A stretch of DNA of 64,000 nt from Bacteroidota bacterium. Lineage in GTDB: Bacteria; Bacteroidota; Bacteroidia; Chitinophagales; Saprospiraceae. How positions within the stretch are numbered: the first letter of the stretch is position 1; every line of letters starts with the position of its first letter. A model generated the notes under the pieces. It made no database searches. It worked only from the letters and a program-made list of their open reading frames with translations, and was not told the DNA's origin. The translations under genes were made by a program, and so were the position numbers. The stretch is from the NCBI GenBank assembly GCA_024642665.1, contig JAHEAR010000004.1:80554-144553 (forward strand), written 5' to 3'. Shown piece after piece: positions 5,431-60,692 of this stretch.

Positions 5431-5451
5431 AAATTTATATGCTGTTTCGAA

Positions 5452-8400
5452 TTATTCATTGCTGACAACACCCGATGTCACCGGCACAACTTCCACCCAT
5501 CGTCCAGGCATACGCGCCTGCACTTTATGCGAATACATCGCATCACACATGATGTCGGGTAACCAATACTTACCCGCATAGGTAGCCGTCATTACAAAAT
5601 GATACGTCCAATCCCCACGACCCATATTGAAAAAAGTATTGACTCTGTCATCCCTGATATCCTGATATTGAATGGAACTGTTTTCAAACCTTCCGGCAAA
5701 ATTGTCCATGCGCTGATTCGCAAGTTCCCATCCTGATGGAAACAAATAAGCCAATGCCAATTGATCAAGGCTTGTTGTATAAGTACCTGGATTGGTCACT
5801 GTCACTTTGACAATAAAATCCTGTCCCTGATTCAATTTGCTGACATTGATCTCACGACCTGTTTTATCCATATACTTTACTGACAACTTCAAATTGTTTT
5901 GTACTTCTGAAGAGACTCCTCTGAGCGGTTTTCCGGTGGTCATCAATCGGACATTTAACGGATCGGAAGAATTGTTTTTTACCGTTACCTGTTTCGCATT
6001 GACATCAAGCACACGAGTGACCATTCCTTTTGTACTGGCTATTTCTAAAGGCGTACTTCCGCTCTGTTCGATTCTCGCTTTGATTTCTTTGCCTGAAAAA
6101 TGCGAAGCCATTTTCCCCATCGTCAGTAACGCAAAAGACGTACTCTGCGTGCTGTACCAATACTCACCGGACAGTGATTCAGCAATCGTATTGGATATGG
6201 TGACGGCATCCTGCATCTTATCCATGGAAAGGAAAGCTTCAAGGATGATAGCTTTGTCTCGTAGTTCAGAGCCAAAGGTTACACTCAGTTCCTGATAAGG
6301 CTCTACTTTAGTTGTCAATTGCGCAACGATTTCTGCGGACACATCTTTGCGATTACCTAATGCATATGTGGTTGCTAACAACCAGGCAGCGGCAGGATCA
6401 AGATTTTGTTGGGTCCGTAATTTATTCATCATCCCCCAGGCCGGCTGTCCGTCCAAGGCAAGGGTATACAAACGATACGCCTGAATTAAATCACTTCGAT
6501 AAGATGATCCTGTTCGGTAAGCCTGAGCATCTTTGTTTTGTGCACTGCGCCACGCATTCATCATCGATCGATCTACTGTATAGCCCGCTTTTGATGCCTC
6601 GATTAAAAAATGTCCTGCATAACTATTTGTCCAACTTTCTTTATAACTCTCTCCCGGCCAATACGTGAATCCACCGGATGGAAGATTAAAGTTTCGGATG
6701 CGATCTATCCCTCGCTGAATATTAATTCGAACCTCCCTTTCCTGTTGCGGTGTCAAGTCCGTTAGCGCACTCAAATACAATTGCGGAAAGACCGAAGAAA
6801 CTGTTTGCTCCAAACATCCATATGGATAGCGTATCAAATATTTTAAGCGCTTCTGTAAATTAATCGCAGGCATGATGGACAATTCTATCGTAGCATCATT
6901 CGTCCCATCCATTCCCGGCAGTACCATGGTGTTGTTCCAGGTTTGTCCTGCCGCAATAGAGGCTGAAATCACATTCGTCAAAGGTGGATTTGGTATTCGA
7001 ACATCCAATTCGAGTTGTTGACTTGTCTTTGATTTACCGGACGTTGCGATCACTTCCACTTTTAAAATTCCCGGACGCTCCGGAATCCGCAGATTGAAGT
7101 ATACCGTTTTCTCTCCCTGATTGGCAAACTGGATGCTTTGACTACTGCTCCCTTCAACGGTCGCCATATCATTTGTCGTCACACGGACTTCTGCCGAACG
7201 AATATTTTCTCCCATTGCATGAACATGCACTGGAAGCGTAACGGTTTCCCCCGGAGACACCACTCTTGGCAACGTTGGTTGAATCATCAGATCTGATTTG
7301 ACCGTACTTGTTTTATCAGTTGATCCCCATCGTTTGCGATCCGATGCTACGACCATTGTTCTGACCGCACCAACATAATTAGGCATGGTCAACGTATGCG
7401 TTTTTTCTTTTCCCGGCTCCAGATAAAATGGACCCAGATGGATGACCACCGGTTTGAATCGTTCCGCTTGTGGTGCATCTACAAGATTGCCGGCACCATC
7501 ACCACCAAGACTTAGTAATCGATCAATCAATCCACCATACCCTCCGAGCACCTGATCAAACATATCCCATGTCTGCACACCCAAAGCTTCCTGTTGATGA
7601 AAATGCTGCCACGGATCAGGCGACTTAAACCGTGTGAGACCTAGTAAACCTTCATCTACAATCGCAATCGTATACGCCATCGGTTGATCATCTTTTTCAC
7701 TAACCGTTACTGTAAAACTTTTATCGGGTTCCAAAACATCGGCTATCTTAATTTCAGGATGTAACATGGTAGCCGGATCTGCGACCATGATGGGCAACAC
7801 ACCATACATACGCAATGGCATATCATTGGCACTATGTTCAAACGGTTGGATATGACTGACATAAGTATACACATTCGGCATCATCTCTGCAGTGGCCTTC
7901 AACGTAATTTGTGTATGATCATCTTTCGCATCATACCACTTGGTGGAAATCACTCTATTGTTTTTTTCAATCGTCAGCAACAATCGGCTACCGGGTGCAG
8001 AAGGAATATTTAATTTGATATCATCGCCTACTTCATAACGTTCTTTATCCGCTGTAAACGTCAATCGGCTGGCTGCATCATTATCTTCGGATGGATCACC
8101 CCATGAACCGGCATAATAAAACTGCCCGGAACAATGACCGGATTCTGTATCACAAACCCGAATCATGTAAGATCCATAGGATTGCGGCGTAATGGTATAA
8201 GAAGTTAATCCACCACTTCCGGTCACAAGCGTGTCTGCATAAATCGCCCCCAGATGAAGTGCACTGTTGTATTGTGTGATATCACTATTCGAACGGTCCC
8301 ACCACCATCGCCAATTGGCCCGATAGATCCCAACCGTCAATGTTCTTCCGGCCGTCCCTTTCCCTTCTGTCGTCACACTGGCGAGTTGGATTTTATTGTC

Positions 8401-10938
8401 TTTATTCAAAACCATTTCTTCATACCCCCATCGATTTTTTGGAATCGAAACACCTGCATAGTGATCGTAAGGATTATAGGTGGTCGAATGATTGTCCGTG
8501 CTGAAATCGCCGCCTGTTTCGAAGACGCGTGTTTTGATGGACATCGTTAATTGACCTTCCGGAAGAAAATCTTCAATAGATGGTATTTCCACTTTCGCAT
8601 GGCCATTGGCATCAAGTGTCTTATCAAAAATCGTACTGACGGTATTAGGTGTTTTACGTGCCGGATCTGAAAACCTGAAAGCGCGGAAACCTTCCGGAGA
8701 AAATTCTTTTGGTTTAAATTGTGCTTCAACCACTGCTTTAAGATTTGCCGCTGGTGCTCCATATAACCACTTTGACGATAAGTCAAACGTTTGTCCGGAT
8801 TGGCTTCCCAAAATCGATTCAGGCAATTCCGCGTCTACACTTAATCGATTAGGTTTTATCGTTTCAATTTTAAGCGCTTTGGAAAAAACAGCATCTCCCA
8901 CTTCCACTTTAGCCATCCAATTTCCTGTCGGATCAGTAGTCTCTGTTTTAAAAGCAAGATTATAAATTCCCCCAACTGAAATCGGACTGGTGATCTCTAC
9001 TTTTTTCTGCCCCAATGGATTGGTCACCGTCAGTCTGACCGGATGCCGTGAATCAATATGACCTTCCGGATCCCACAATATAAAATTCAAATAGATGCTA
9101 TCCCCCGGTCGCCAGACACTACGCTCTCCATAAATATATCCGCGTAGTCCTTCCTGATAGCCGGTTCCTCCGGTATTAAATTCACTCATCGATAAGGCTA
9201 AGCCATCCCCTAATCGCAAATATCCTTTTTGACGATCAGCACTTGCAACTACGAAAAAAGCTTGACGAGGCGTTTCAAAAACTACGCTTCCATCTCCGGC
9301 AGTTTTACCGGTACCCATGGATTGTTGTTGGAAATCAAACACTTCAATTTGAACGCCTGTCATTGGGGATGCGGTAGTGATTGAACTGGCAAATACCCAG
9401 GTTTTACCCTTTGCATCTCTTTTGGCTGTCAGGCCAATATCGGATGCCAACAGATTGCGACTTATAAATCGACCTTCGTTATAAAAAGCCGGAAAGCAAG
9501 GATCATCCGTTTGACTCCAGTCGAAACCCGGATAACTATAATCATAGGTCCAGAAAGTTTGCACCTCACCAAAAGGAATAGCTTCGGCAGGCTTAGCAGA
9601 TTCCGTATAGCAATCGAGATATGTATCCGTGCCTCTAAAACCAACCCTTACCTGATAAATACTCCCCGGAGATAACTTCACCAATGGTCCCAGATCTAGC
9701 GCATAACGCGTCCAGGAAAATTGATTGTCTGCATCTGATAATTCTTTCAGATCTACTTCCTTTTGCAAAATAATGCGTCCGACCGGTTCAAGATTCCATG
9801 GATCTTCAAGATCATTGTATTGCAGATACTGAAGAATATTGTTTTCAAAAATCTGAAGCACTTCAACTTGTACACGTTTAAGATTGATGGCTTCAAAAGG
9901 AAAAATAATGTCTCTATTGCCGGGCGTAATCACACCTGATCCAACCAGCTTTAGTGCAGGGTTTGGATCGTCAAGAGAAACATCAACCTGTACCATCGCA
10001 CCAAGCTCCTTATCTAAGGAAGAAGTAATGACTGAATTTAAATGAATGGACAATTCACCGGACAATGCCTTATCCGGATAAATGGACAGCACATGATCTT
10101 TCTTTTTAAGGGTGAACCCATCTGTCCGATCATTGATCGAGACAAGTCCTGCCAGTTCCTGATTGGCCTTTAGCTTTTGCGAAAAGTAAATATTTATTTT
10201 TCTTTCACCATCAGTACCGGGTTCAAAGGAAAGCACACTAAATTCATCAGCTCTCGGTATACGAATGGCTCTCTCTCCGGATTCTTTCGCACCAATAGCG
10301 CGTCCATCCCAAATAAATTTTAACGTTGCTTCCGGTGCTATGTTGGCAATGACAAATTCGTGAGAGGTTCCGGAAGGATTATGCTTCCATTGCATTTCAT
10401 CCATTTTTCCGGTAGATTTTTTACTCAGTATTTGTTCAATTTTTTGCGCATCCACACCGGACGAAGTAGAAAGCATACCACGAAGCGCATAGACCGGATT
10501 GTCTCCATCAAACTCTGGCACAAGTGGCTCAAAGTAAACTGTCATCCGAACCGGCTTTACGGTAAATTCAAAAACGACGCTCTTCATGCCGGGTTCCAGA
10601 TCGGAAATAACTTTATCCAGATTAACCTTGAGTTGATAAGCTGTTCCTGGAGTCCATTCTTTCGTAGGGCGAAAAGCCAGCGTCCTTGCATCTTCCCATT
10701 GAAAATTTCCATCAATCGCAGGATTAAAAGAGAAAATCTCTTTTGTCAGGCTGGTATCCACCGGCACGGCAAATCGTATTCTGACCGGGTCATTAGATTC
10801 AATGGCTGAAGGCACCCGAGCCGCGATATATCTTCCGATTTCTTCGGAGGTAAGGATGTTTGGGGCAAAATCCTTTTTACATGCGAAAAAGGTTAAAAAA
10901 ATGGCCAGAAAGATAAAAGGTTGGAATGGGCGCTTCAT
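5452..10938 (-). CDS. Alpha-2-macroglobulin family lipoprotein
   Basis: A large (1828-residue) bacterial macroglobulin. A lipoprotein signal peptide ends LTFFAC with the lipidated Cys at 20, so it should be membrane-anchored in the periplasm or at the surface. Successive beta-sandwich (MG) domains lead to the thioester motif YGCLEQ with Cys1375 and Gln1378, followed by the alpha-helical thioester domain and a C-terminal receptor-like domain. Family members trap proteases through the thioester. It is first in an operon with pbpC. The intact CLEQ indicates the active, thioester-bearing class rather than the class that has lost it. Confidence 0.95.
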   Translation of the reverse strand: MKRPFQPFIFLAIFLTFFACKKDFAPNILTSEEIGRYIAARVPSAIESNDPVRIRFAVPVDTSLTKEIFSFNPAIDGNFQWEDARTLAFRPTKEWTPGTAYQLKVNLDKVISDLEPGMKSVVFEFTVKPVRMTVYFEPLVPEFDGDNPVYALRGMLSTSSGVDAQKIEQILSKKSTGKMDEMQWKHNPSGTSHEFVIANIAPEATLKFIWDGRAIGAKESGERAIRIPRADEFSVLSFEPGTDGERKINIYFSQKLKANQELAGLVSINDRTDGFTLKKKDHVLSIYPDKALSGELSIHLNSVITSSLDKELGAMVQVDVSLDDPNPALKLVGSGVITPGNRDIIFPFEAINLKRVQVEVLQIFENNILQYLQYNDLEDPWNLEPVGRIILQKEVDLKELSDADNQFSWTRYALDLGPLVKLSPGSIYQVRVGFRGTDTYLDCYTESAKPAEAIPFGEVQTFWTYDYSYPGFDWSQTDDPCFPAFYNEGRFISRNLLASDIGLTAKRDAKGKTWVFASSITTASPMTGVQIEVFDFQQQSMGTGKTAGDGSVVFETPRQAFFVVASADRQKGYLRLGDGLALSMSEFNTGGTGYQEGLRGYIYGERSVWRPGDSIYLNFILWDPEGHIDSRHPVRLTVTNPLGQKKVEITSPISVGGIYNLAFKTETTDPTGNWMAKVEVGDAVFSKALKIETIKPNRLSVDAELPESILGSQSGQTFDLSSKWLYGAPAANLKAVVEAQFKPKEFSPEGFRAFRFSDPARKTPNTVSTIFDKTLDANGHAKVEIPSIEDFLPEGQLTMSIKTRVFETGGDFSTDNHSTTYNPYDHYAGVSIPKNRWGYEEMVLNKDNKIQLASVTTEGKGTAGRTLTVGIYRANWRWWWDRSNSDITQYNSALHLGAIYADTLVTGSGGLTSYTITPQSYGSYMIRVCDTESGHCSGQFYYAGSWGDPSEDNDAASRLTFTADKERYEVGDDIKLNIPSAPGSRLLLTIEKNNRVISTKWYDAKDDHTQITLKATAEMMPNVYTYVSHIQPFEHSANDMPLRMYGVLPIMVADPATMLHPEIKIADVLEPDKSFTVTVSEKDDQPMAYTIAIVDEGLLGLTRFKSPDPWQHFHQQEALGVQTWDMFDQVLGGYGGLIDRLLSLGGDGAGNLVDAPQAERFKPVVIHLGPFYLEPGKEKTHTLTMPNYVGAVRTMVVASDRKRWGSTDKTSTVKSDLMIQPTLPRVVSPGETVTLPVHVHAMGENIRSAEVRVTTNDMATVEGSSSQSIQFANQGEKTVYFNLRIPERPGILKVEVIATSGKSKTSQQLELDVRIPNPPLTNVISASIAAGQTWNNTMVLPGMDGTNDATIELSIMPAINLQKRLKYLIRYPYGCLEQTVSSVFPQLYLSALTDLTPQQEREVRINIQRGIDRIRNFNLPSGGFTYWPGESYKESWTNSYAGHFLIEASKAGYTVDRSMMNAWRSAQNKDAQAYRTGSSYRSDLIQAYRLYTLALDGQPAWGMMNKLRTQQNLDPAAAWLLATTYALGNRKDVSAEIVAQLTTKVEPYQELSVTFGSELRDKAIILEAFLSMDKMQDAVTISNTIAESLSGEYWYSTQSTSFALLTMGKMASHFSGKEIKARIEQSGSTPLEIASTKGMVTRVLDVNAKQVTVKNNSSDPLNVRLMTTGKPLRGVSSEVQNNLKLSVKYMDKTGREINVSKLNQGQDFIVKVTVTNPGTYTTSLDQLALAYLFPSGWELANQRMDNFAGRFENSSIQYQDIRDDRVNTFFNMGRGDWTYHFVMTATYAGKYWLPDIMCDAMYSHKVQARMPGRWVEVVPVTSGVVSNE

Positions 10939-27597: not shown

Positions 27598-27630
27598 GCA
27601 CAGGGCATGGGGCGAAGGGCTGAGAGAGAA

Positions 27631-27665
27631 GGGCGTAGGGCGTAGGGCGTAGGGCGTAGGGTGAA
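27631..27665 (+). repeat. GGGCGTA tandem heptamers
   Basis: Four perfect copies of GGGCGTA (27631-27658) are followed by a degenerate GGGTGAA. Upstream bases (GGGCATG, GGGCGAA, GGGCTGA) look like older decayed units, so the array once ran from about 27603. Confidence 0.85.
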
Positions 27666-27904
27666 ATAAAAATTATGAATGTGTGCATTTCGAAAATATT
27701 AATTTCAACTAAACTCTCCTAAACAATAAGTGCCAAAGGTGCTTAGTGCTCAACTTTCTCAACGCATACACCAAATGACATAACCAAAAGATCTGAGACT
27801 TTTAGACCTGAGACTAATAGACGGGAGAAACGTTCGCCGCCGCCAATTCCAAACCATCGGAAAAGGCGACCAAGGAACACCAGATTTAAATCTTTATAAC
27901 TTTT

Positions 27905-27936
27905 TAATCTCCTAACCCTTTAACCTCTTAACCCTA
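27905..27936 (-). repeat. Third octamer array
   Basis: Four 8-base units TAATCTCC, TAACCCTT, TAACCTCT and TAACCCTA, the reverse complement of the GGTTANNA family at 84-163 and the same sense as 516-556. Confidence 0.7.
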
Positions 27937-33174: not shown

Positions 33175-35070
33175 ATGAAAAAAATCCTTACCCTCATGCT
33201 TTTGAGCTGCCTTTTTGCCCAGTCTCAGGCACAAGTAATCTTCTCGGAAAATTTCGATGACGGTACTTTAGGCTCTATGTCAGCTGTTGACGTTGACGGT
33301 TTGACCGTTGCATCACAAGTTTCTACAGTAGCCGGACCAACATGGAAAACCCGTCAGGCCACTCAGACTAACTGGCTTGTTGTGAGTACCTCATGGTTTT
33401 CACCTCCTGGGATTGCAGATGACTGGTTGATTTCTCCTGCCATTGAAATTACTGAGGAAAACACATTTGTTGTATGGGAAGCATATTCCCCTGATGCCAG
33501 CTACCGTGATGGTTACGAATTACGTGTTTCCACCACAGACGATGCCATTGCGAGTTTTACGGATGTTGTATATACCAATCCAGCAGAACAAACAACCCCG
33601 ATTCTTAGGGCACAGCGCCTTGATGCTTACATCGGTCAGACCATTCATTTTGCTTTCAGAAATAACTCTAACGATAAATTTCTGCTCTATATGGATAATA
33701 TCCGCGTAGAAGTCTTTAAGGCAAATAACGTCGTTGCTCAACGGATGAGTTTTGAGAAATACAACCAGATTGGTGGTATGGTTCCAATTAAAACTTCCAT
33801 TCAAAACTATGGTGGTGCTCCAATCACTTCTCTTCTTTACACTTGGGAACAAGGTGGCGTTGAATACACAGATACCCTCACTGGATTAAATATTACAACA
33901 TTGGGGACTAAGGAACTGACACACTCAGTAAAGTTTGACTTATCTGAAGTTGGTGAATATCCTATCAATGTAAGTGTCTCTATGCCAAATGGTGTTGATG
34001 ATGAGGATCCGGGTGATAACTATGCATCAAGAAACCTTTATGGTATGAATGTGCAGCAACCTAAAAAAGTAGTTGTTGAAGAAGCTACCGGAACATGGTG
34101 TGGCTGGTGCCCAAGAGGAACTGTAAACATGGATATCGTAGCAGCAGATTTTGCTGATGTAGCTATTCCTATTGCAGTGCACAACGGAGATCCAATGACC
34201 ATTGCTGAATATGATGGTCCTTTCAGTCAAACCGTTGGCGGATACCCATCAGGACATGTGGATAGAAAAATCATTGATATCGATCCAGGAACTTTTGTAG
34301 CTCAATTACAAACGCTCACAGGCAGAATGGTACCTGCTCAAATCAAGACAGAATCCATTTACGAGCCTAACTCAAGAAATGTGGTTGTGCGTGCTACAGG
34401 TAGCCTTTCAATCGCTACGGCAGCAAATGATTTCAGATTGTCTTGCGTGATTACAGAAGATGGTGTTACTGGAACCGGTTCAGCTTATGACCAGCGTAAC
34501 TACTACGCAGGTGGCGCAAATGGCCCAATGGGTGGTTTCGAATCTTTGGCTGACCCTGTACCGGCTGCTGACATGGTGTACCATTTTGTTCCTCGTGCTT
34601 TATTTGGTGGATTCAATGGAATGGAAAACAGTGTACCGGATGTTCTTGAAGCCGGAGAAGAGTTCTCTGTAGAATGGACCTTTACCGTTCCTGAAGACTT
34701 TGATGTAGATCAAATGCATGCCATCACTTTCATTCTTGATGAAGAAACTGGTGAAATCTTAAACGGAGCTAATGTTCCTTTAACTGAGCAATTGAGTGCT
34801 GTGCCTTTGATTCCAATGGGACAAACTTCTTTGTATCCTAATCCTACACAGGATTTCATGAACCTTTCAGTTGATTTCTTATCAGAGACCCCTGTTAGCA
34901 TGAATATCTATAATACCAGCGGTGTACTGATCAGTAATCTGGGTACGCTAAACCTTTCTAATGGTACAGGTTTTGAAAAGATTAATGTGAGTGACTTTAC
35001 CCCAGGAATGTATATCCTTGAGTTGAGACAAAACAACGCTGTAACAGCACTTCCTTTTAGTAAACTCTAA
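33175..35070 (+). CDS. T9SS cargo with choice-of-anchor J and Omp28-like domains
   Basis: A 631-residue secreted protein. After a signal peptide (1-19) comes a choice-of-anchor J (MAM-like) domain at about 22-185 (FSENFDDGTLG, DDWLISPAIEI). A CARDB-like beta domain follows at about 185-290. Next is an Omp28-type thioredoxin-fold region with TGTWCGWCPRG (Cys309, Cys312). A T9SS type A domain (SLYPNPTQDFMNL to the C-terminus) ends it. A redox-active pair on a surface-exported protein is the notable point. It is monocistronic, with a strong terminator at 35101-35133. Confidence 0.88.
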   Translation: MKKILTLMLLSCLFAQSQAQVIFSENFDDGTLGSMSAVDVDGLTVASQVSTVAGPTWKTRQATQTNWLVVSTSWFSPPGIADDWLISPAIEITEENTFVVWEAYSPDASYRDGYELRVSTTDDAIASFTDVVYTNPAEQTTPILRAQRLDAYIGQTIHFAFRNNSNDKFLLYMDNIRVEVFKANNVVAQRMSFEKYNQIGGMVPIKTSIQNYGGAPITSLLYTWEQGGVEYTDTLTGLNITTLGTKELTHSVKFDLSEVGEYPINVSVSMPNGVDDEDPGDNYASRNLYGMNVQQPKKVVVEEATGTWCGWCPRGTVNMDIVAADFADVAIPIAVHNGDPMTIAEYDGPFSQTVGGYPSGHVDRKIIDIDPGTFVAQLQTLTGRMVPAQIKTESIYEPNSRNVVVRATGSLSIATAANDFRLSCVITEDGVTGTGSAYDQRNYYAGGANGPMGGFESLADPVPAADMVYHFVPRALFGGFNGMENSVPDVLEAGEEFSVEWTFTVPEDFDVDQMHAITFILDEETGEILNGANVPLTEQLSAVPLIPMGQTSLYPNPTQDFMNLSVDFLSETPVSMNIYNTSGVLISNLGTLNLSNGTGFEKINVSDFTPGMYILELRQNNAVTALPFSKL

Positions 35071-46126: not shown

Positions 46127-48850
46127 ATGCAAAAATGGCTATTAATAACCGGGTTCTCCCTTGTTTGGCTTTCGTCGTCTTCCCAGCAGGTATTATTCAA
46201 GAACAGCACCGGTAAGCTTAATCCTGTTTCCGGCTTTACCAATTATGTGGACTGTGCTGTGGATATGAATGGGGACCATCTGGATGACGTGGTACGGATT
46301 GGCAATAAAGGCATGTACATTGACTATCAACTTCCGGACGGCCATTTTTCCCAGCATTTTTTTTTCATGCCGATCCAAGCACCTCCAGATTGGAGCCTTT
46401 CCGCTGGTGATATTGATAATAACGGCTATAATGACCTTCTTTTTGGCAACTCCCATAAAGTTTCTTTCGTCCAGGCAAATGAGAATGGAACTTTTTATCA
46501 GGAAACAGTCATGCCATCCTTTATTTTCAGTCAGCGATCTACTTTCGCAGATATTGACAATGACGGATGGCTCGATGCTTTTGTATGCAATGATACAGCA
46601 CAGAGCATCCCATATAAGAACTATGGGGCCGGTGAAATGACAGAGGACACTAACCTCATTCATACGGCCAACCTGCCCGGTAATTATGCCGCCATATGGA
46701 CCGATTATGACAATGACGGATACACTGATCTTTATATTACTAAATGCCAGCAACAGGCTCCTCCAGGACATATCAATCGTACTAATCTCCTGTACCGGAA
46801 TAACGGTGATGGCAGTTATTCGGAAGCAGGTGCCGAGGCAGGCCTTGACGATAATGCGCAATCCTGGAGCACGTCATTCGAAGATTTTGATAACGATGGC
46901 GATTTTGATGCGTTTATCGTAAATCATGATTTTCAAAATCGGTTGTTTCGAAACAACGGGGATGGAACATTCACGGATGTCATCAGCACCTCAGGTATTA
47001 ATGGCAGTGATCTTGGCGCTTATGAAAATGCGTCTGGTGATTTCAACAATGATGGATTCATGGATATTTTTGCCGAGCTGACCAACGAACTCTACCTTGG
47101 AAACGGGGACCTTACATTTTCCGCTCAGGATCTACCTATGATTCCCGGCGCCATCGCAGATTTAAACAATGACGGCTTCCTGGATGTCCTTCGAAACGGT
47201 GTCTTTTGGGAAAATGAAGGCAACACAAATCACTGGCTTAAAGTTTTTCCTGTCGGAACCCAAAGCAACAAAAACGGCATTGGGGCAAGAGTGGAAGCAT
47301 ATGGTACATGGGGCCGTAAGATCAGGGAAGTTCGTTCAGGTCAAAGTTATAGTCCGATGAGTTCGCTGACCACTCATTTTGGTTTAGGCCCTTATGAATG
47401 GGTAGATTCCCTGATAATACATTGGCCGTCCGGGATAGTGACACACCTTCAAAACCTGAAGACGGATACCACCTATGTCATAGCCGAAGCACCTTGTATT
47501 CTGCCTGTTTCTGAAGTATCCGTTTTAGGCAATCTGATCAATTGCCCCGGAGACACCGCGATCCTCATCGCTCCACCGGGCTTTTCGAATTATACGTGGT
47601 CGAACTTCCATAATGGCCAATCACTTGAAGTAGGAGGTGAAGGAACATTCTATGCCTTTTGTACGGATAGCGCAGGTTGTATTTCGATTACCACACCGGT
47701 CCGGATTCAAAAACTGATTGAAAAAATACCTGAAATATTCAATGCTGAAGGGAACCTAATTTGTGAAGGTGACACGCTTATATTAATGTCAACACCCGGC
47801 GAAAATTATACCTGGTCTTCCGGAGCAACAGGCACCCCCAATATCGAAGTTGCAGATCCGGGAATGTATACAGTTTCTGTCGATGCTGTTTGTTTTTCCG
47901 GCCAATTAACTTCTAATCCATTCGAAGTTATTGTATTACCTGCATCCGCGCCTTTGGCAAATGGTGCAGTAATTTCGCAGGGCGATTCCATCCTGATCAC
48001 TGCAGAAGGTGAAAATTGTCAATGGTATGATCAGCCAATAGGTGGAAATTTACTGGCTATCGGTTCCGCTTTTCAAACTTCGCCATTAAGTTCTTCGGTT
48101 ACTTATTATGTTGAAAGCCATCATTTTTACCCCGGACCAATCCAGTCGGGTGGAAAAATGGATACGACAGGGTCTGGTGGAGTGGCTAGTCAGGCGGGAT
48201 ACCTTTTATTTGAAGTCTGGGAGCCATTTACTTTGCTTTCTGTCTCAGTTTATGTGCCTCCGGGCTCCCCTTTGAGCACACGATTTGTCCTGCTCTGGTC
48301 CGAGGATGCCCAACTGGCTTTAAAACAATTTACCATGCAGCCGGGATGGAATTTGCTGGAGTTAAATTTCGCAGTTCCGGTGGGAAAATTTTCATTACGT
48401 TGTCCTCAGGGTAATTTGTGGCGGAATACTACACCTCTTGATTATCCTTATCCCATTGGTGATGTAGGAAGAATCACATCTTCTAATTTCGGCGATTCGT
48501 ACTATTACTTTTTCTATGATTGGAAAATAAAAAAAGAAGACTTCGAATGCATTTCTGACCGGATTCCGGTCGAAGTAATCTTGTCTGGCTCTTCAGAAAT
48601 TCACGATCAGAAAACGCTACTGATTTTTCCAAATCCTGTATCCGAGAATTTATTTATTCAGCTTAAAGGTGACCGGACAACGGCCGGACTTTTAAGCATG
48701 TCAGACCTTCAAGGAAAGTTGATACTCAACCAACAATTTTACGGGGAACATGCCTTTCAATTAAATCTGGTAGATCTTTCATCAGGTATATATTTCCTGA
48801 AGGTTGCAGGCCATGATTATTTTGAAACCAGAATGGTAATAAAATTGTAG
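46127..48850 (+). CDS. T9SS cargo with FG-GAP/VCBS, ASPIC-UnbV and Ig-like domains
   Basis: A 907-residue secreted protein. After a signal peptide (1-19), a beta-propeller of VCBS/FG-GAP repeats carries six calcium-type loops (DIDNNGYND, DIDNDGWLD, DYDNDGYTD, DFDNDGDFD, DFNNDGFMD, DLNNDGFLD; about 40-360). An ASPIC/UnbV domain follows (about 385-450, GARVEAYGTWGRKIREV, FGLGPYEWVDSLIIHWPSG). Two Ig-like beta domains with Cys pairs come next, then a jelly-roll-like region, and a T9SS type A domain starting LIFPNPVSENLFI. Ligand unknown; adhesion or polymer binding is plausible. Confidence 0.88.
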   Translation: MQKWLLITGFSLVWLSSSSQQVLFKNSTGKLNPVSGFTNYVDCAVDMNGDHLDDVVRIGNKGMYIDYQLPDGHFSQHFFFMPIQAPPDWSLSAGDIDNNGYNDLLFGNSHKVSFVQANENGTFYQETVMPSFIFSQRSTFADIDNDGWLDAFVCNDTAQSIPYKNYGAGEMTEDTNLIHTANLPGNYAAIWTDYDNDGYTDLYITKCQQQAPPGHINRTNLLYRNNGDGSYSEAGAEAGLDDNAQSWSTSFEDFDNDGDFDAFIVNHDFQNRLFRNNGDGTFTDVISTSGINGSDLGAYENASGDFNNDGFMDIFAELTNELYLGNGDLTFSAQDLPMIPGAIADLNNDGFLDVLRNGVFWENEGNTNHWLKVFPVGTQSNKNGIGARVEAYGTWGRKIREVRSGQSYSPMSSLTTHFGLGPYEWVDSLIIHWPSGIVTHLQNLKTDTTYVIAEAPCILPVSEVSVLGNLINCPGDTAILIAPPGFSNYTWSNFHNGQSLEVGGEGTFYAFCTDSAGCISITTPVRIQKLIEKIPEIFNAEGNLICEGDTLILMSTPGENYTWSSGATGTPNIEVADPGMYTVSVDAVCFSGQLTSNPFEVIVLPASAPLANGAVISQGDSILITAEGENCQWYDQPIGGNLLAIGSAFQTSPLSSSVTYYVESHHFYPGPIQSGGKMDTTGSGGVASQAGYLLFEVWEPFTLLSVSVYVPPGSPLSTRFVLLWSEDAQLALKQFTMQPGWNLLELNFAVPVGKFSLRCPQGNLWRNTTPLDYPYPIGDVGRITSSNFGDSYYYFFYDWKIKKEDFECISDRIPVEVILSGSSEIHDQKTLLIFPNPVSENLFIQLKGDRTTAGLLSMSDLQGKLILNQQFYGEHAFQLNLVDLSSGIYFLKVAGHDYFETRMVIKL

Positions 48851-49138
48851 TCAAAAGTTAGAAAAAAAGGCACTTTCTGGCCATTTCAAATGTTAAACTG
48901 ATTCAGTTGGGAGGTTGGATATGTTGGTTCAATATTGTATCTTTTTGTAATTTTGAGAGCTAAATATTTCTAAGAGACGGAATACAATAGCCCTGTTCGT
49001 TTGCTTTTTCTGCCCGCTCAGATATCTCTTGGAGGGAAGAAGTGATTTTTAACACCACTTTTGAATTACATTGCAAACAAGATGGGATGCATCTTATTTG
49101 CTGTAATACGCTAATTTATAAATGAGGTGTTTTTGACA

Positions 49139-52100
49139 ATGAGAATCTCATACTTGGCATTAATCATTTTTATTGGGGGAATTTTCCCATGTACTTCATT
49201 ATATGGCCAATGTGAGGATTTTATGATCAGCATAACTTCTGACCCTCCTCCACCCTTTAACTTATGTCCCGGAGAAACCATATTGTTAACCGCCATTGTT
49301 AGTGGCGGTACAGGCCCATATACTTATTTATGGGGCGATGGAGCCACTACCCCAACCACTATTGTCACTCCCCCTTATAATGGCGGTTTCTCTTTAATGG
49401 TATCGGATGCTGCTGGTTGTGTGGCCTTTGAGTCGATCCATATCAAAGCTGATTTTTGGACAGTGGATATTTTCTTTGTAAATACAACCTATTGTTTGGG
49501 CGATTCAATGCCTTTGTATGCCTATCCGGATTTTCCGCCGGGCACGACTTTTCTTTGGTCGACCGGGGATACAACCACTTCCATTTTTATAACCACCTCA
49601 GGTACCTATTCTCTTACTGCAACCGATCCGGAAGGGGACTGCACCGGATCGATTACAGAATTTATCGAAATGTTTTTCTTCCCTCAGCCAGACCCGGATA
49701 TTTTGGGTCCCACTGCATTGTGCCCTGGCCAAAATGCCACCCTTACTGCGCAGGGTGCCCCGGATGACATTTATATCTGGAGTACAGGAGAAGAAACGTC
49801 TTCAATTACTATATCCGCACCAGGCACATTTTGGGTTACCGTAACAAATTCCTTCGGGTGTTTCGGTATAGATTCCTTAGAGGTGCTCCCAGGCACGGAA
49901 CCTCCCATTATTTCGGCACCCTCCATTTTATGCAATGGCCAAAACGGCACTATTGAAATCACCAATGCATCCTCCTATTCTGATTTCCTATGGAGCACCG
50001 GGGAAACCACATCCAGCATTGATATCTCTTCTCCCGGAACCTATTCCGTCACTGTCACCGCCAGCGGCGGGTGTACGGCTACCGCCTCTGTGACGGTAGA
50101 TTCCGGCACTTCAGCCATTGACATTACAGGTATCACCATGCCATTAACTTCCTGTTCCAACCCTGATGGCAGCGTCAATATAACCGTGACCCCGCCCGGG
50201 TCGTATTCTTTTATATGGTCAAACGGCTCAAATACTGAAGACATCAACAACCTGCCTTCCGGCAGCTTCACCGTTACGGTTACAGATGCAGGTGGCTGTT
50301 CTTCAAGTTCAACTTATATTGTGGATTCCAATGTGGTGATTCCCGGTACTTCAGCCACCATCACGGCCACGTCCTGCGATTTAAATAATGGTGCCATTGA
50401 TCTCAGTGTTGTTCCATCCGGTATGTACACTTTCCTTTGGTCCGGCGGAGAAACTACGGAAGACCTTTTGAACATACTGGCAGGCAGCTATTCAATCACC
50501 GTCACCTCCTCATCCAATGGTTGCACCGCATCAAGCAGCTTTACCGTTCCAAATAGTAATCCTCCCATCACTATCACTGGAAATACCACCCCCCTTACCT
50601 CCTGCACTGCCCCTAACGGAACTATTGACATTATGCCTGCTCCAGCCGGCACGTATACCTTTTTGTGGTCCAATGGAGCCACTACCGAAGACCTCACAAA
50701 CCTTTCCGCCGGAAGCTATACCGTCACTGTATCGGCTGGCGGCAGTTGTACCCAAACCGGTACTTATATCGTTGCCAACAATACTTCCCCGCCCGTTCCT
50801 GCCGCCACGCCAACGCCCGACACTTGCAGTCTGAGTCATGGTGTCATTGATCTCAATGTCATTCCCGCAGGTACCTATACTTTCATCTGGTCCAATGGCA
50901 GTACTACCGAAGATTTGACCGGTATTCCAGGCGGAACCTATTCCGTAACCGTTACTTCTTCAGATGGATGCACCGCCATCACAAGCACTATTGTTGAAGA
51001 CACACTAATCCCTTTAGCTATAACCGGTACCGCATTACCAAATACTTCCTGCACAGGCCAAAATGGTTCTATTGACATCACCGTTAATCCTCCGGCCAAT
51101 TATTCTTATGCCTGGTCCAATGGTGCCACCACAGAAGACCTGGCAAACCTTCCCGCCGGCAGTTACACTGTCACCGTATCGGCAGGTGGAAGTTGTACGG
51201 CAAGCGCCACCTATAGCGTCGACAATACCCTTTCTCTTCCCATTCCTGTCGCTGCACCTACACCGGACACCTGTGGCCAGAGCCTTGGAGCCATTGATCT
51301 CAATGTCACACCGGTTGGTTCCTATACCTACCTCTGGTCAAATGGCAGTACTTCTGAAGATCTGAGCGCAATCCCTACCGGAAACTATTCCGTAACCGTT
51401 ACTTCTCAGGATGGATGTACCGCCATCACAAGTACTTCTATCGAAGACCATTCAATTCCTCTGGCTATCACCGGAACCTCTTCGCCAAATACCTCATGCA
51501 CTGCGCCTAACGGATTCATTGATATTTCGCTCTCTCCAGCAGGTACATATAGCTACATCTGGTCAAATGGAGCAACTACAGAAGACCTAAGCAATCTCCC
51601 TGCAGGTTCTTATTCCATAACAGCCATTTTAGGTTTCACCTGCATGGCCGCTGATACTTTTTTTGTAGATAATGATTTTACCGTCATTCCCCTATCCGGA
51701 ATTACCACACCTAATACCTCATGCAGCCAACCCAACGGAACCATTGACCTCACCGTCGGTATTCCAGGTTCTTTTACCTTTCTCTGGTCCAATGATCAGA
51801 CCACTGAAGATATTCAACTATTAACCGGCGGTTTTTATACCGTGACCGTGACCGGAGGTGACGGCTGTACCGCTACGTCTACTTTTGAAATCATCAATTC
51901 CAATTCTACTTTTTCCTTCTCCGGATTGGTTATTCCTAATACATCATGCATCATCCCCAATGGCAGCATAGATTTAACACTTACCCCTCCCGGGGCGTAT
52001 ACCTTTGCCTGGTCAACCGGTGCATCCTCCGAGGATTTGCAAAATCTATCTTTTGGCAATTATGAAGTTACCGTCACGGATAGTAATGATTGTGCTGTAG

Positions 52101-54691
52101 TGGCTTCCTTTGCCGTTGATGACCTTTTCTCCTTCCCCCAAATTGCGGCCCAGACCACTCCTTCTGTCTGCGAAAATAATAATGGCTCCATTGATATCAC
52201 GGTTATTCCGGTCAACGGAAATACGTTCTCCTGGTCCAACGGGAGCACAGAGGAGGATCAGTTTAATCTTACCATTGGTGATTACATTGTAACAGTAACA
52301 TCATCCTTTGGCTGTAGTAGCACTGATACCTTTAGTATTGTAAACCAAAATTCAAATATTACTATTTCAGCAGTTACATTACCGAATACCTCCTGCTCCT
52401 CCCCGAATGGCTTGATTGATATCACAATAACCCCAGCCGGAACATATACTTTTCTTTGGTCAAACGGTGAATCAACCGAAGATCTTCAATTTCTTTCTTC
52501 AGGAACATATGAAGTGACCGTTACTGATCTATTGAATTGTAGTATGACATCGATTTTTACAATTGAAAGCACAAATACTTTGCCTGAGATCAACGCTGTG
52601 ATTACACCACCCAATTGTGAGGCAATGGATGGTTCCATAGATATCAATATTTCACCTATTGGCCTATATAGTATCTTATGGGGGGATGGAAGTACAAATG
52701 AAGATTTAATTAATATTGGGGCAGGGGTTTATACTGTCATGGTGACCGACACTAACAATTGCAAGGCCAGCGATACATTTTTGGTATTTAGCCAGAACAA
52801 TAGCTTTTCTGTTATGAGCACTACCATGCCCAATACTTCCTGTGTTTTTCCTAACGGGTCAGTAGACCTGACTATCATCCCATTCGGATTATATACTTTC
52901 TCATGGTCCAACGGAATTTTATCTGAAGACTTGACAATGGTCAGTAGTGGGAGTTATTCTGTTACTGTGACAGACGCTTCACTATGCTCATCAATTCTAT
53001 TGATTATTGTTAGTGATAGTCTTCCTATAATTACAAGCAACGCAATAATTTCTCCTTCTACATGCGAAGGCAGTAACGGTAGTATCGATCTATCTGTTTC
53101 ACCATCTTTGGGAAACAGTTATCTTTGGTCTGATAGTGCGACTACAGAGGACAGGGCAAATCTTGATCAAGGCGACTATATTATTACCATCACCACGGAA
53201 AGCGGATGCACCTTGGTTGATACTTTTACAGTACCGAATTTAGGGTCACCTCCTGTTTTAACTGCCAATATCAATGACAATACTAATTGTCTCTCACCAA
53301 ATGGTGCTATTGATCTCTTCATTTCTCCGGCAGGTTTATATACTTTTTTTTGGTCAAATGGCATGTCCTCTGAAGACCTTCCTGATCTTTCGCAAGGTAA
53401 TTATATGGTAACTGTAACAGATATTAATGGTTGCTCCTCAACTGGAAATTTTATCATTAATAACATGGCGATCATTCCCAGCATCAGCTCAGTGATTTCG
53501 CCTTCAGTATGTGGCGATTCAAATGGTGCTATTGACATTACAGTAAACCCTAATGGATCATACCAATTCGCCTGGTCGGGTGGAGAAATAACCGAAGATA
53601 TTTATAATTTAAAAGCGGGAACCTATTTGATTACCGTAACGGGAAGTAACGGTTGTAGTGCCAATACATCTTTTACGGTTCCGAATACGGCCACGAATTT
53701 TTCAATAAATGCAGCGCTGACAAATAATACCTCCTGTGACTTTTTTAATGGCGCTATCAATCTTACCGTATCACCTTCGGGCATTTATACTTTTCAATGG
53801 TCTAATGGCGCTGGAACAGAGGATCTATTTAATCTTGAACCAGGGACTTATACCGTTACTGTCTCTGATTCCTTTAATTGCTCTACATCCGATACATTTA
53901 CCATCGCAGATGACGCCCAAAATTTGACGGTCGAATCGACTCTTTATCCAGCCAAATGCGGTGAACCCAACGGGAGTATTGATCTGATGATCACGCCTTC
54001 CAACAGTAATAATTACATTTGGTCTGACGGATCCACTTCTGAGGATTTGTTGAATATTTTTCCGGGCAATTACAGTATTACAATTACTAGCCAAACGGGC
54101 TGTATACAAATTTTAAGTTACCTCCTAACAGGAAGTGAAAACTTAAATATCACACTTGAAGCAGTTGCCTCTCAGGCAGGAAATGAATTTGTCAATATTC
54201 AGACAAAGGTCAATGTACCATTAAACGCTCTGGACACAATTATTTGGCTCCCTGAAATATTGTTTGATTGCATAGGACAAATCTGTTTGGAGCAAACCAT
54301 CAAAAGACCTAATCAACAAACCGAAATAAACGTCATTGCTATAGATACAAATGGATGTCTGGCGGAGGCAAGGCTAATACTGAAAGATATTATTAATCCG
54401 GCAGTGTTTATTCCCAATATTTTTACACCAAATGGTGATGGCATTAATGACATTTTCACGTTGTATGGAAACAAAGACGTAGAACTAATACTAGAACTGC
54501 AGATATTTGATCGTTGGGGAAATCAAGTATTTATCGCTACTGAGTTTCCTCCTAATCAAGAAAATTATGGTTGGGATGGAACTTTCCGATATGACGAATT
54601 AAATCCGGCGGTATTTGTCTACTGGGCCCGAGTCAGGTTTAGGGATGGCTCTGAAGATTATTTCAAAGGCGATATCACTCTTGTAAAATAA
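49139..54691 (+). CDS. Giant SprB-repeat T9SS type B surface protein
   Basis: An 1850-residue secreted protein. Signal peptide 1-24 (LYGQ end); four PKD/Ig-like repeats to about residue 330; then 18 SprB-like repeats of about 75 residues (consensus TSC..PNG.IDI, YTFLWSNG.TTEDL, G.Y.VTVTD..GC). The C-terminus is a gliding-motility/CHU_C type B sorting domain (FIPNIFTPNGDGINDIF to DITLVK). SprB itself is the mobile gliding adhesin of Flavobacterium. The start is ATG 49139, since the upstream GTG adds MFLT before the signal peptide. Each repeat has two cysteines. It may serve adhesion or gliding; no gliding genes are nearby. Confidence 0.9.
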   Translation: MRISYLALIIFIGGIFPCTSLYGQCEDFMISITSDPPPPFNLCPGETILLTAIVSGGTGPYTYLWGDGATTPTTIVTPPYNGGFSLMVSDAAGCVAFESIHIKADFWTVDIFFVNTTYCLGDSMPLYAYPDFPPGTTFLWSTGDTTTSIFITTSGTYSLTATDPEGDCTGSITEFIEMFFFPQPDPDILGPTALCPGQNATLTAQGAPDDIYIWSTGEETSSITISAPGTFWVTVTNSFGCFGIDSLEVLPGTEPPIISAPSILCNGQNGTIEITNASSYSDFLWSTGETTSSIDISSPGTYSVTVTASGGCTATASVTVDSGTSAIDITGITMPLTSCSNPDGSVNITVTPPGSYSFIWSNGSNTEDINNLPSGSFTVTVTDAGGCSSSSTYIVDSNVVIPGTSATITATSCDLNNGAIDLSVVPSGMYTFLWSGGETTEDLLNILAGSYSITVTSSSNGCTASSSFTVPNSNPPITITGNTTPLTSCTAPNGTIDIMPAPAGTYTFLWSNGATTEDLTNLSAGSYTVTVSAGGSCTQTGTYIVANNTSPPVPAATPTPDTCSLSHGVIDLNVIPAGTYTFIWSNGSTTEDLTGIPGGTYSVTVTSSDGCTAITSTIVEDTLIPLAITGTALPNTSCTGQNGSIDITVNPPANYSYAWSNGATTEDLANLPAGSYTVTVSAGGSCTASATYSVDNTLSLPIPVAAPTPDTCGQSLGAIDLNVTPVGSYTYLWSNGSTSEDLSAIPTGNYSVTVTSQDGCTAITSTSIEDHSIPLAITGTSSPNTSCTAPNGFIDISLSPAGTYSYIWSNGATTEDLSNLPAGSYSITAILGFTCMAADTFFVDNDFTVIPLSGITTPNTSCSQPNGTIDLTVGIPGSFTFLWSNDQTTEDIQLLTGGFYTVTVTGGDGCTATSTFEIINSNSTFSFSGLVIPNTSCIIPNGSIDLTLTPPGAYTFAWSTGASSEDLQNLSFGNYEVTVTDSNDCAVVASFAVDDLFSFPQIAAQTTPSVCENNNGSIDITVIPVNGNTFSWSNGSTEEDQFNLTIGDYIVTVTSSFGCSSTDTFSIVNQNSNITISAVTLPNTSCSSPNGLIDITITPAGTYTFLWSNGESTEDLQFLSSGTYEVTVTDLLNCSMTSIFTIESTNTLPEINAVITPPNCEAMDGSIDINISPIGLYSILWGDGSTNEDLINIGAGVYTVMVTDTNNCKASDTFLVFSQNNSFSVMSTTMPNTSCVFPNGSVDLTIIPFGLYTFSWSNGILSEDLTMVSSGSYSVTVTDASLCSSILLIIVSDSLPIITSNAIISPSTCEGSNGSIDLSVSPSLGNSYLWSDSATTEDRANLDQGDYIITITTESGCTLVDTFTVPNLGSPPVLTANINDNTNCLSPNGAIDLFISPAGLYTFFWSNGMSSEDLPDLSQGNYMVTVTDINGCSSTGNFIINNMAIIPSISSVISPSVCGDSNGAIDITVNPNGSYQFAWSGGEITEDIYNLKAGTYLITVTGSNGCSANTSFTVPNTATNFSINAALTNNTSCDFFNGAINLTVSPSGIYTFQWSNGAGTEDLFNLEPGTYTVTVSDSFNCSTSDTFTIADDAQNLTVESTLYPAKCGEPNGSIDLMITPSNSNNYIWSDGSTSEDLLNIFPGNYSITITSQTGCIQILSYLLTGSENLNITLEAVASQAGNEFVNIQTKVNVPLNALDTIIWLPEILFDCIGQICLEQTIKRPNQQTEINVIAIDTNGCLAEARLILKDIINPAVFIPNIFTPNGDGINDIFTLYGNKDVELILELQIFDRWGNQVFIATEFPPNQENYGWDGTFRYDELNPAVFVYWARVRFRDGSEDYFKGDITLVK
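50110..54115 (+). repeat. SprB-type coding repeats, about 225 bp each
   Basis: Eighteen protein repeats alternate between type A (opening NTSC..PNG) and type B (opening P..C...NG or TPDTC). The B units often close with TSSDGC-like ends. The pair of units at about 50560-51000 is most like the next pair at about 51010-51450, with matching bases 450 apart (for example 50961 and 51411). Confidence 0.85.
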
Positions 54692-59834: not shown

Positions 59835-60692
59835 TTACTCGATCAAATGGGCGGAGGTAGCCTGCAGTACAGGAAAATCGGCACCATTCACTAACGTAAT
59901 GAATGCTACAATTTCCATGGATTCTGCCACCCATTCACTATTGATCGTTGAAGTATACTCTTTGCTAAACGTCTTTCCAACAGAGATATCCTGAAATAAT
60001 GTCTCACCGGCCGCAGGTGTTAGCATATTTCTCAAAACGTGTTTGTGTACATAATCATCCACAATGCCACCGGCTTCAAGATCATCCTGGGCATCCACAA
60101 TACCACTTTCGGTGAGCATGATAGACAGTCGAACATCTCCTGATTCAATTTCTTTGCCAATACCACTGACGGTCATTATCAATTCACGTGTATCTGCATC
60201 ATAGGTGTGCTCTATCTCCACTTCGATCGAAGGGGCATTCTGTATCTCGCTTGAAATCGCAGAAGCCCATTGTTGAAGACCAATTTGCAAATCAGGTCCG
60301 AAATATGCACGATTCACAACACCTGCCGGATACCCAAAATTAGGCCCCAGATAACCATATAGGAAAGCGCTTTGCTCCGCTCTCAGATCATAGATGCCAA
60401 CAGGAAAAAATTCCGGATCTGCAAAAAAACCGGCATGAATGGAAACCGCAATCAGGTTGTCAGGATACTGAAGTAAAAGATTATCGATCTCTCTACTGCC
60501 TTTGGGACAATTGGTGCACCCTTTTCCTGTAAACTCTTCCAATAGTACTACCCTGTCTCCGGAAGGCACGAAGGGCTCGATGACTCTCTTTTGTTCATCG
60601 CATCCAAAGAGCAAAACAATAAAACCAATCAGGCTTAATCGCGTAAAATGAAAAATTGAAGAAGTCATAATGGTACTTTTAATATTGGTCAT
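59835..60692 (-). CDS. Omp28-family lipoprotein
   Basis: A 285-residue outer-membrane lipoprotein. The signal peptide ends VLLFGC with lipidated Cys31 (shorter if Met9 starts). A thioredoxin-like fold has LLEEFTGKGCTNCPKGS with Cys59 and Cys62, then a beta-rich C-terminal domain (about 170-285). It starts 19 bp after the DUF6029 gene, so the two are one transcript. Omp28 was described as a Porphyromonas surface protein; its redox role is inferred from the CxxC. Confidence 0.88.
   Translation of the reverse strand: MTNIKSTIMTSSIFHFTRLSLIGFIVLLFGCDEQKRVIEPFVPSGDRVVLLEEFTGKGCTNCPKGSREIDNLLLQYPDNLIAVSIHAGFFADPEFFPVGIYDLRAEQSAFLYGYLGPNFGYPAGVVNRAYFGPDLQIGLQQWASAISSEIQNAPSIEVEIEHTYDADTRELIMTVSGIGKEIESGDVRLSIMLTESGIVDAQDDLEAGGIVDDYVHKHVLRNMLTPAAGETLFQDISVGKTFSKEYTSTINSEWVAESMEIVAFITLVNGADFPVLQATSAHLIE

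Follow-up and report, generated by a model that had tools for sequence, protein, structure and literature searches.

An ancestral A-B super-repeat of SprB-type Ig-like domains, with cysteines probably linked across domain joints, in a predicted type 9-secreted surface protein of Saprospiraceae

The window is the whole stretch of DNA that was analyzed, 64,000 nucleotides in length, and the feature under study is a repeat gene on its plus strand (49127..54691). The gene encodes 1,854 amino acids from a GTG start, but translation more likely begins at an ATG at 49139, with which the product has a signal peptide. All parts of the gene lie on the plus strand. The region 49139..49888 encodes the signal peptide and three divergent Ig-like domains, with an N-cap cysteine (C29, 49211-49213) ahead of the first domain. 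An array of SprB-type repeats follows. Behind the array is a domain (54137..54406) with C1715, C1720, and C1744, of which C1744 (DTNGC) is the proposed Cys2-like partner for Cys1 of the last repeat. The protein ends with a type B C-terminal sorting domain of the type 9 secretion system (T9SS) at 54407..54676 (CHU_C / TIGR04131).

Cutting the array at the motif C-x(3-5)-G-x-I-D gives 19 units, R00 and R01-R18. The leading unit, R00 (49889..50110), is divergent and falls outside both A and B in the tree. Based on the motif cut, the tree, and leave-one-out typing, the type A units are R01 (50111..50332), R03 (50561..50782), R05 (51008..51229), R07 (51455..51679), R09 (51905..52126), R11 (52352..52573), R13 (52799..53020), R15 (53246..53467), and R17 (53693..53914). 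By the same three lines, the type B units are R02 (50333..50560), R04 (50783..51007), R06 (51230..51454), R10 (52127..52351), R12 (52574..52798), R14 (53021..53245), R16 (53468..53692), and R18 (53915..54136), which is the last unit and is divergent. The sole exception is R08 (51680..51904), an A-like unit in a B slot, as indicated by typing, the joint tree, and column comparison. Unit lengths are mostly 74 (A) and 75 (B) residues, and an A-B pair is 149 residues long.

The tandem matches to the SprB repeat (PF13573) have an E-value of 7.6e-22 and score 77.1 bits against a Pfam cut-off of 28. The Pfam model, with 37 positions, spans half of the actual 75-residue unit. The TIGR04131 type B sorting signal scores 49.9 bits (cut-off 35), and the source genome encodes SprA, GldK, and eight PorP/SprF-family genes. 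Judging from the signal peptide, the Ig-like domains, the type B signal, and the T9SS genes, the product is predicted to be a T9SS-exported surface stalk or adhesin. A scan for sigma-70 promoters 5' of the repeat gene found none, which is expected because the phylum uses another promoter type. The window protein is matched in all 61 of the related genomes searched.

The upstream gene (46127..48850, plus strand) encodes an FG-GAP / UnbV_ASPIC protein with a T9SS type A signal. Orthologs of the two genes are likewise adjacent in G003, G263, and G280, and the FG-GAP product is probably a partner of the repeat protein. The FG-GAP gene is not an obligatory neighbor, as most FG-GAP orthologs have no repeat gene beside them. 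The top-ranked named relatives of the neighboring gene come mostly from metagenome assemblies of Saprospiraceae. Elsewhere, the window contains short tandem repeats at 80-162 (AGGTTATG), 27610-27661 (AGGGCGT), and 27903-27935 (a 16-mer). Genes for a penicillin-binding protein 1C-like protein and a bacterial alpha-2-macroglobulin lie at 3079-10938 on the minus strand. Two Omp28-domain proteins, one of which has a T9SS type A signal, are encoded at 33175-35070 (plus) and 59835-60692 (minus).

The initial annotation described 18 repeats of two types in an A-B order broken only at repeats 7-9 (A-A-A), and this is borne out by lag identity, shuffling, and typing. R01-R18 read A B A B A B A A A B A B A B A B A B. 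For 10 units of type A and 8 of type B, the chance of at least 16 runs is 0.0019. Mean identity between units at lags 1-8 is.364,.484,.368,.447,.386,.423,.406, and.409. Units at the same position of the pair are thus more alike than neighbors, in register along the array, as in a super-repeat. None of 20,000 shuffled unit orders equaled the even-minus-odd contrast in identity. In a maximum-likelihood tree, the check proposed for the two types, a single branch (94/91) divides A from B and recurs in 96% of bootstrap trees. The mixing of A and B units that would have spoken against two types was not seen. Leave-one-out profile typing was correct for 17 of 17 units of the window array, with R08 set aside. 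At the DNA level, TRF finds a tandem period of 447 bp, or 149 codons, at 50666..51501. This period marks the latest pair duplication (R03-R04 / R05-R06), and only R03-R06 retains the pair in its DNA, with identities of 0.77 (R04/R06) and 0.68 (R03/R05).

Orthologs were sought in 298 genomes of the family with the N-terminal region of the window protein as the query. Clear orthologs, well separated from the remaining matches, are found in G131, G315, G177, G003, G263, G297, and G280. Alternation is unbroken over 15 units in G003, 15 in G297, 11 in G315, 9 in G177, and 7 in G280, while G131 has two short alternating stretches of 3-4 units. Every ortholog with a readable array has the A-B order, which spans at least five genera of a Saprospiraceae-like family, including that of the window. 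The joint tree, with 82 units, places 35 of 37 B units across genera in one clade (99/93), and a single clade of all A units is not rejected (p-AU 0.54). Leave-one-out typing of window and ortholog units was correct in 81 of 81 cases. On this sequence evidence, the A/B split is older than the genera that carry it, since the same two types alternate in orthologs of several genera. The pair of about 150 residues that had been suggested as the building block is likewise supported, at 149 residues, and as an ancestral unit.

The DNA identities of the G003, G297, G315, and G177 arrays have no period of two, though their residue types alternate. These older arrays have lost or lack the DNA pattern and still alternate in type, so recent duplication alone does not account for the A-B order, which is probably kept by selection. 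Alternation is not a general trait of SprB arrays. When other SprB-type arrays of the order were scanned with the same profiles as an internal control, most did not alternate, the exceptions being L085 (p = 0.02) and, marginally, L070. The period of two in L085 is independent of that in the window family.

R08 is A-like over columns 5-50. It carries a proline at column 4, which is found in 22 of 24 B units and in 0 of 34 A units, and its columns 51-61 are B-like, scoring lower there than 98% of A units. These B-like edges speak against an ordinary A unit. The initial annotation proposed that one B unit had been lost or converted, and of these two options partial conversion fits better. Loss of a B unit would yield A-A and a shifted register, but R08 occupies an even-numbered (B) slot and all later units stay in phase. 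The simplest reading, on moderate evidence, is that R08 is probably a B unit partly converted by A sequence. An ancestral exception was also considered, with unit 6 of G003 and G297, which like R08 reads NTSC/NTAC, as the counterpart of R08. This idea was dropped because the joint tree groups both unit 6s with B and R08 with A.

The two types differ in particular places. Of the 15 most type-specific columns, 14 lie in joint columns 1-19 or 57-64 (p = 2e-7). Columns 1-19 cover the linker, strand A, and the Cys1 loop, and columns 57-64 are the Cys2 loop. The core is nearly the same in A and B. For R03-R06, AlphaFold2 with 18 aligned segments gave a model with a pLDDT of 93.2 and a pTM of 0.59, at which the orientation of the domains is not fixed. 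Each modeled unit has six strands, with the Cys1 loop after strand A and the Cys2 loop before strand G. In an Ig-type sandwich, these two loops lie at opposite ends of a domain, and the Cys1 loop of one domain would face the Cys2 loop of the next across the joint. The type-specific residues would then touch in the joint between neighboring domains.

Two cysteines per repeat, as initially annotated, are present in 18 of 18 units. A wider survey covered 91 related arrays with 2,040 units, and Cys1 and Cys2 were both present in 1037 of 1100 units. Joint loss of both cysteines from one unit was never seen in these arrays, versus 63 single losses. Across joints, Cys1 of one unit and Cys2 of the next are lost together (two-by-two counts 905, 2; 14, 10; p = 1e-15), though this p-value overstates independence, as the 10 co-loss joints stem from six arrays in four genomes. 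Where Cys1 is absent and the following Cys2 is kept, the linker nearly always provides a cysteine. The combined rule, that Cys2 of a unit is present if and only if the preceding unit has Cys1 or the linker has a cysteine, leaves two exceptions (818, 1; 1, 7).

The ends of the arrays are a separate test from internal co-loss. Cys2 is missing from 8 of 57 first units versus 14 of 891 (p = 1.7e-5), and Cys1 from 12 of 115 last units versus 24 of 891 (p = 3e-4). The opposite excess, first units without Cys1 or last units without Cys2, is never seen. The direction is the same in 19 further arrays, most of which belong to other families of the class (pooled p = 6e-7 and 7e-5), and among these the arrays from outside the order have end effects only, with no internal co-loss seen. 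An N-cap cysteine soon after the signal peptide and before the first domain is present in the window protein and in all seven orthologs whose N-terminus is available. The joint scheme pairs all 48 mature cysteines of the window protein, from C29-C98 and C47-C172 through to C1611-C1744, with C1715 and C1720 left together. The scheme does not explain everything, since 77 joints have a linker cysteine besides Cys1 and Cys2. An association between Cys2 of one unit and Cys1 of the next is also found (p = 1e-5), and the proposed reason is that some arrays staple only every second joint. From the cross-joint co-loss and the directed end effects, we infer a chain of disulfides between neighboring repeats. 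The regular disulfides suggested by the initial annotation are therefore probable, between consecutive repeats and not within each repeat.

In Ig-like domains, conserved cysteines often pair inside one domain, and an ordinary Cys1-Cys2 disulfide could close each repeat, with A and B differing for ligand-binding reasons. The presence of both cysteines in most units agrees with this. The absence of any joint loss within a unit, the strong co-loss across joints, the direction of the end effects, and the N-cap cysteines all disfavor it, making an intradomain bond very improbable. The alternation itself could instead be a mere footprint of growth, left when a two-domain unit was tandemly duplicated by unequal recombination, the order having no function of its own. 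Recent duplications do lie at even lags, both in the window array and in G280 (identities 0.90 and 0.87), and both the 447-bp period and the clustering of same-type units from one gene in the joint tree fit such growth. However, every unit stays true to type in the four arrays that have no period of two in their DNA, and the residues that define the types cluster at the joint. Growth without function is thus an unlikely account of the order, if one to be kept in view.

Alternation may also be kept to make neighbors dissimilar, with less domain-swapped misfolding below ~40% identity and less slippage between adjacent DNA repeats. Consecutive homologous domains are usually less than 40% identical, and this diversity inhibits aggregation (PMC4647330). 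The window array fits the rule, with 36-37% identity at lag 1 versus 48-49% at lag 2. Yet sister arrays of the order tolerate 50-74% identity between neighbors (L086, L088, and L077), the G280 ortholog reaches 52% at lag 1, and the location of the differences at the joint is left unexplained. This explanation is accordingly improbable.

The preferred reading, to which we give a probability of about two in three, is a type 9-secreted stalk or adhesin built on an ancestral A-B super-repeat, with alternating joints stapled from Cys1 to Cys2 of the next unit and stiff as a result. The extender would have grown by whole A-B pairs, each made of two Ig-like domains and 149 residues long. The differences between A and B at the N-terminal linker, strand A, the Cys1 loop, and the loop before Cys2 would mark the presumed contact with the neighbor. 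Most likely, Cys1 of each repeat would bond to Cys2 of the repeat after it, so that the stalk would be stapled from domain to domain along its length. With A and B in alternation, the stapled joints would also be of two alternating kinds, A-to-B and B-to-A, and would bend or twist the stalk regularly, once every two domains. Stapling would stiffen the stalk and protect it from proteases, in the way that calcium acts in the extenders of RTX adhesins.

The nearest solved structure is grappling hook protein A (GhpA) of Aureispira sp. (PDB 9flp, 9fls, 9flu-9fly, and 9g8b). Aureispira belongs to the Saprospiraceae, like the window organism. In the PDB, the repeat profile matches no sequence other than GhpA (E = 1.4e-14), and the eight best fold matches are GhpA entries, with E-values down to 2.9e-12, although the matches are short and weak (TM 0.35-0.46). 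Both proteins have tandem Ig-like domains that are similar by sequence and fold. GhpA is larger (5,898 residues), has other domain content, and forms hooks, whereas the window protein gives no sign of hook formation.

SprB of Flavobacterium johnsoniae, a protein of ~6,500 residues that moves along the gliding track, shares with the window protein the SprB repeat (PF13573), the type B T9SS signal, and a genome that encodes T9SS and PorP/SprF-family carriers. The window protein is far smaller, at 1,854 residues, and its partner is an FG-GAP protein. No SprF-type carrier gene lies beside the repeat gene, and none of the eight PorP/SprF-family genes is on its contig. For these reasons of size and gene content, the window protein is not assigned as SprB.

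The RTX adhesin extender domains of MpIBP/MpAFP, MhLap, and AhLap are beta-sandwich repeats stiffened by calcium in their linkers (PMC7493085). The likeness is in how the stalk would work, through linker-stiffened beta-sandwich repeats, and the AhLap tetra-tandemer (6xi1) is also a fold match to the window repeats. RTX extenders use calcium in place of the proposed disulfides and an unrelated secretion system. In organization, the window protein resembles titin, whose A-band super-repeats consist of Ig-type domains that are most alike at equal positions (PMC10665226). Titin differs in being eukaryotic, in the much longer period of its super-repeat, and in its ruler function.

It is also reasonably likely that SprB-type repeats of Bacteroidota are generally linked to their neighbors by disulfides from Cys1 to the next Cys2, with the N-cap cysteine starting the chain, and that the window family has refined this into two alternating, selected joints. 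Gliding and predatory Bacteroidota commonly have SprB-type arrays in their large surface proteins, and the arrangement bears on how such thin stalks withstand force. Stapling between neighbors, if real, would alter how domain boundaries, folding, and T9SS export are understood. The chain would have to remain reduced up to its export or else be secreted with the staples in place, and the extensibility of the stalk would be limited. The A-B super-repeat also offers a ready design, with A-A, A-B, and B-A joints, for relating joint type to stalk shape. A full-text literature search, which covered few subscription papers, found neither an A-B super-repeat nor neighbor stapling described, and a search for literature on disulfides of GhpA or SprB returned nothing usable.

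Several other arrays have features of their own. In the source genome, L051 (G000:C30:32000-50000) holds two SprB-repeat frames of 1,552 and 1,550 amino acids, ~5 kb apart and with identical best scores, which are probably a recent gene duplication. A second locus of that genome, L054 (G000:C33:74000-86000), encodes a 1,365-residue SprB-type array whose units lack Cys2 and Cys1 alternately; by the joint rule, every second joint alone would be stapled there. L085 (G038) and L078 (G058) each have a separate period of two: Cys1 is missing from every second unit, and a linker cysteine takes its place. At most joints of L082, L086, and L088, the linker holds a third cysteine besides Cys1 and Cys2. 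The long SprB-type arrays L070 (G006), L090 (G033), and L067 (G005) have an excess of identity at lag 4, which hints at super-repeats of four units.
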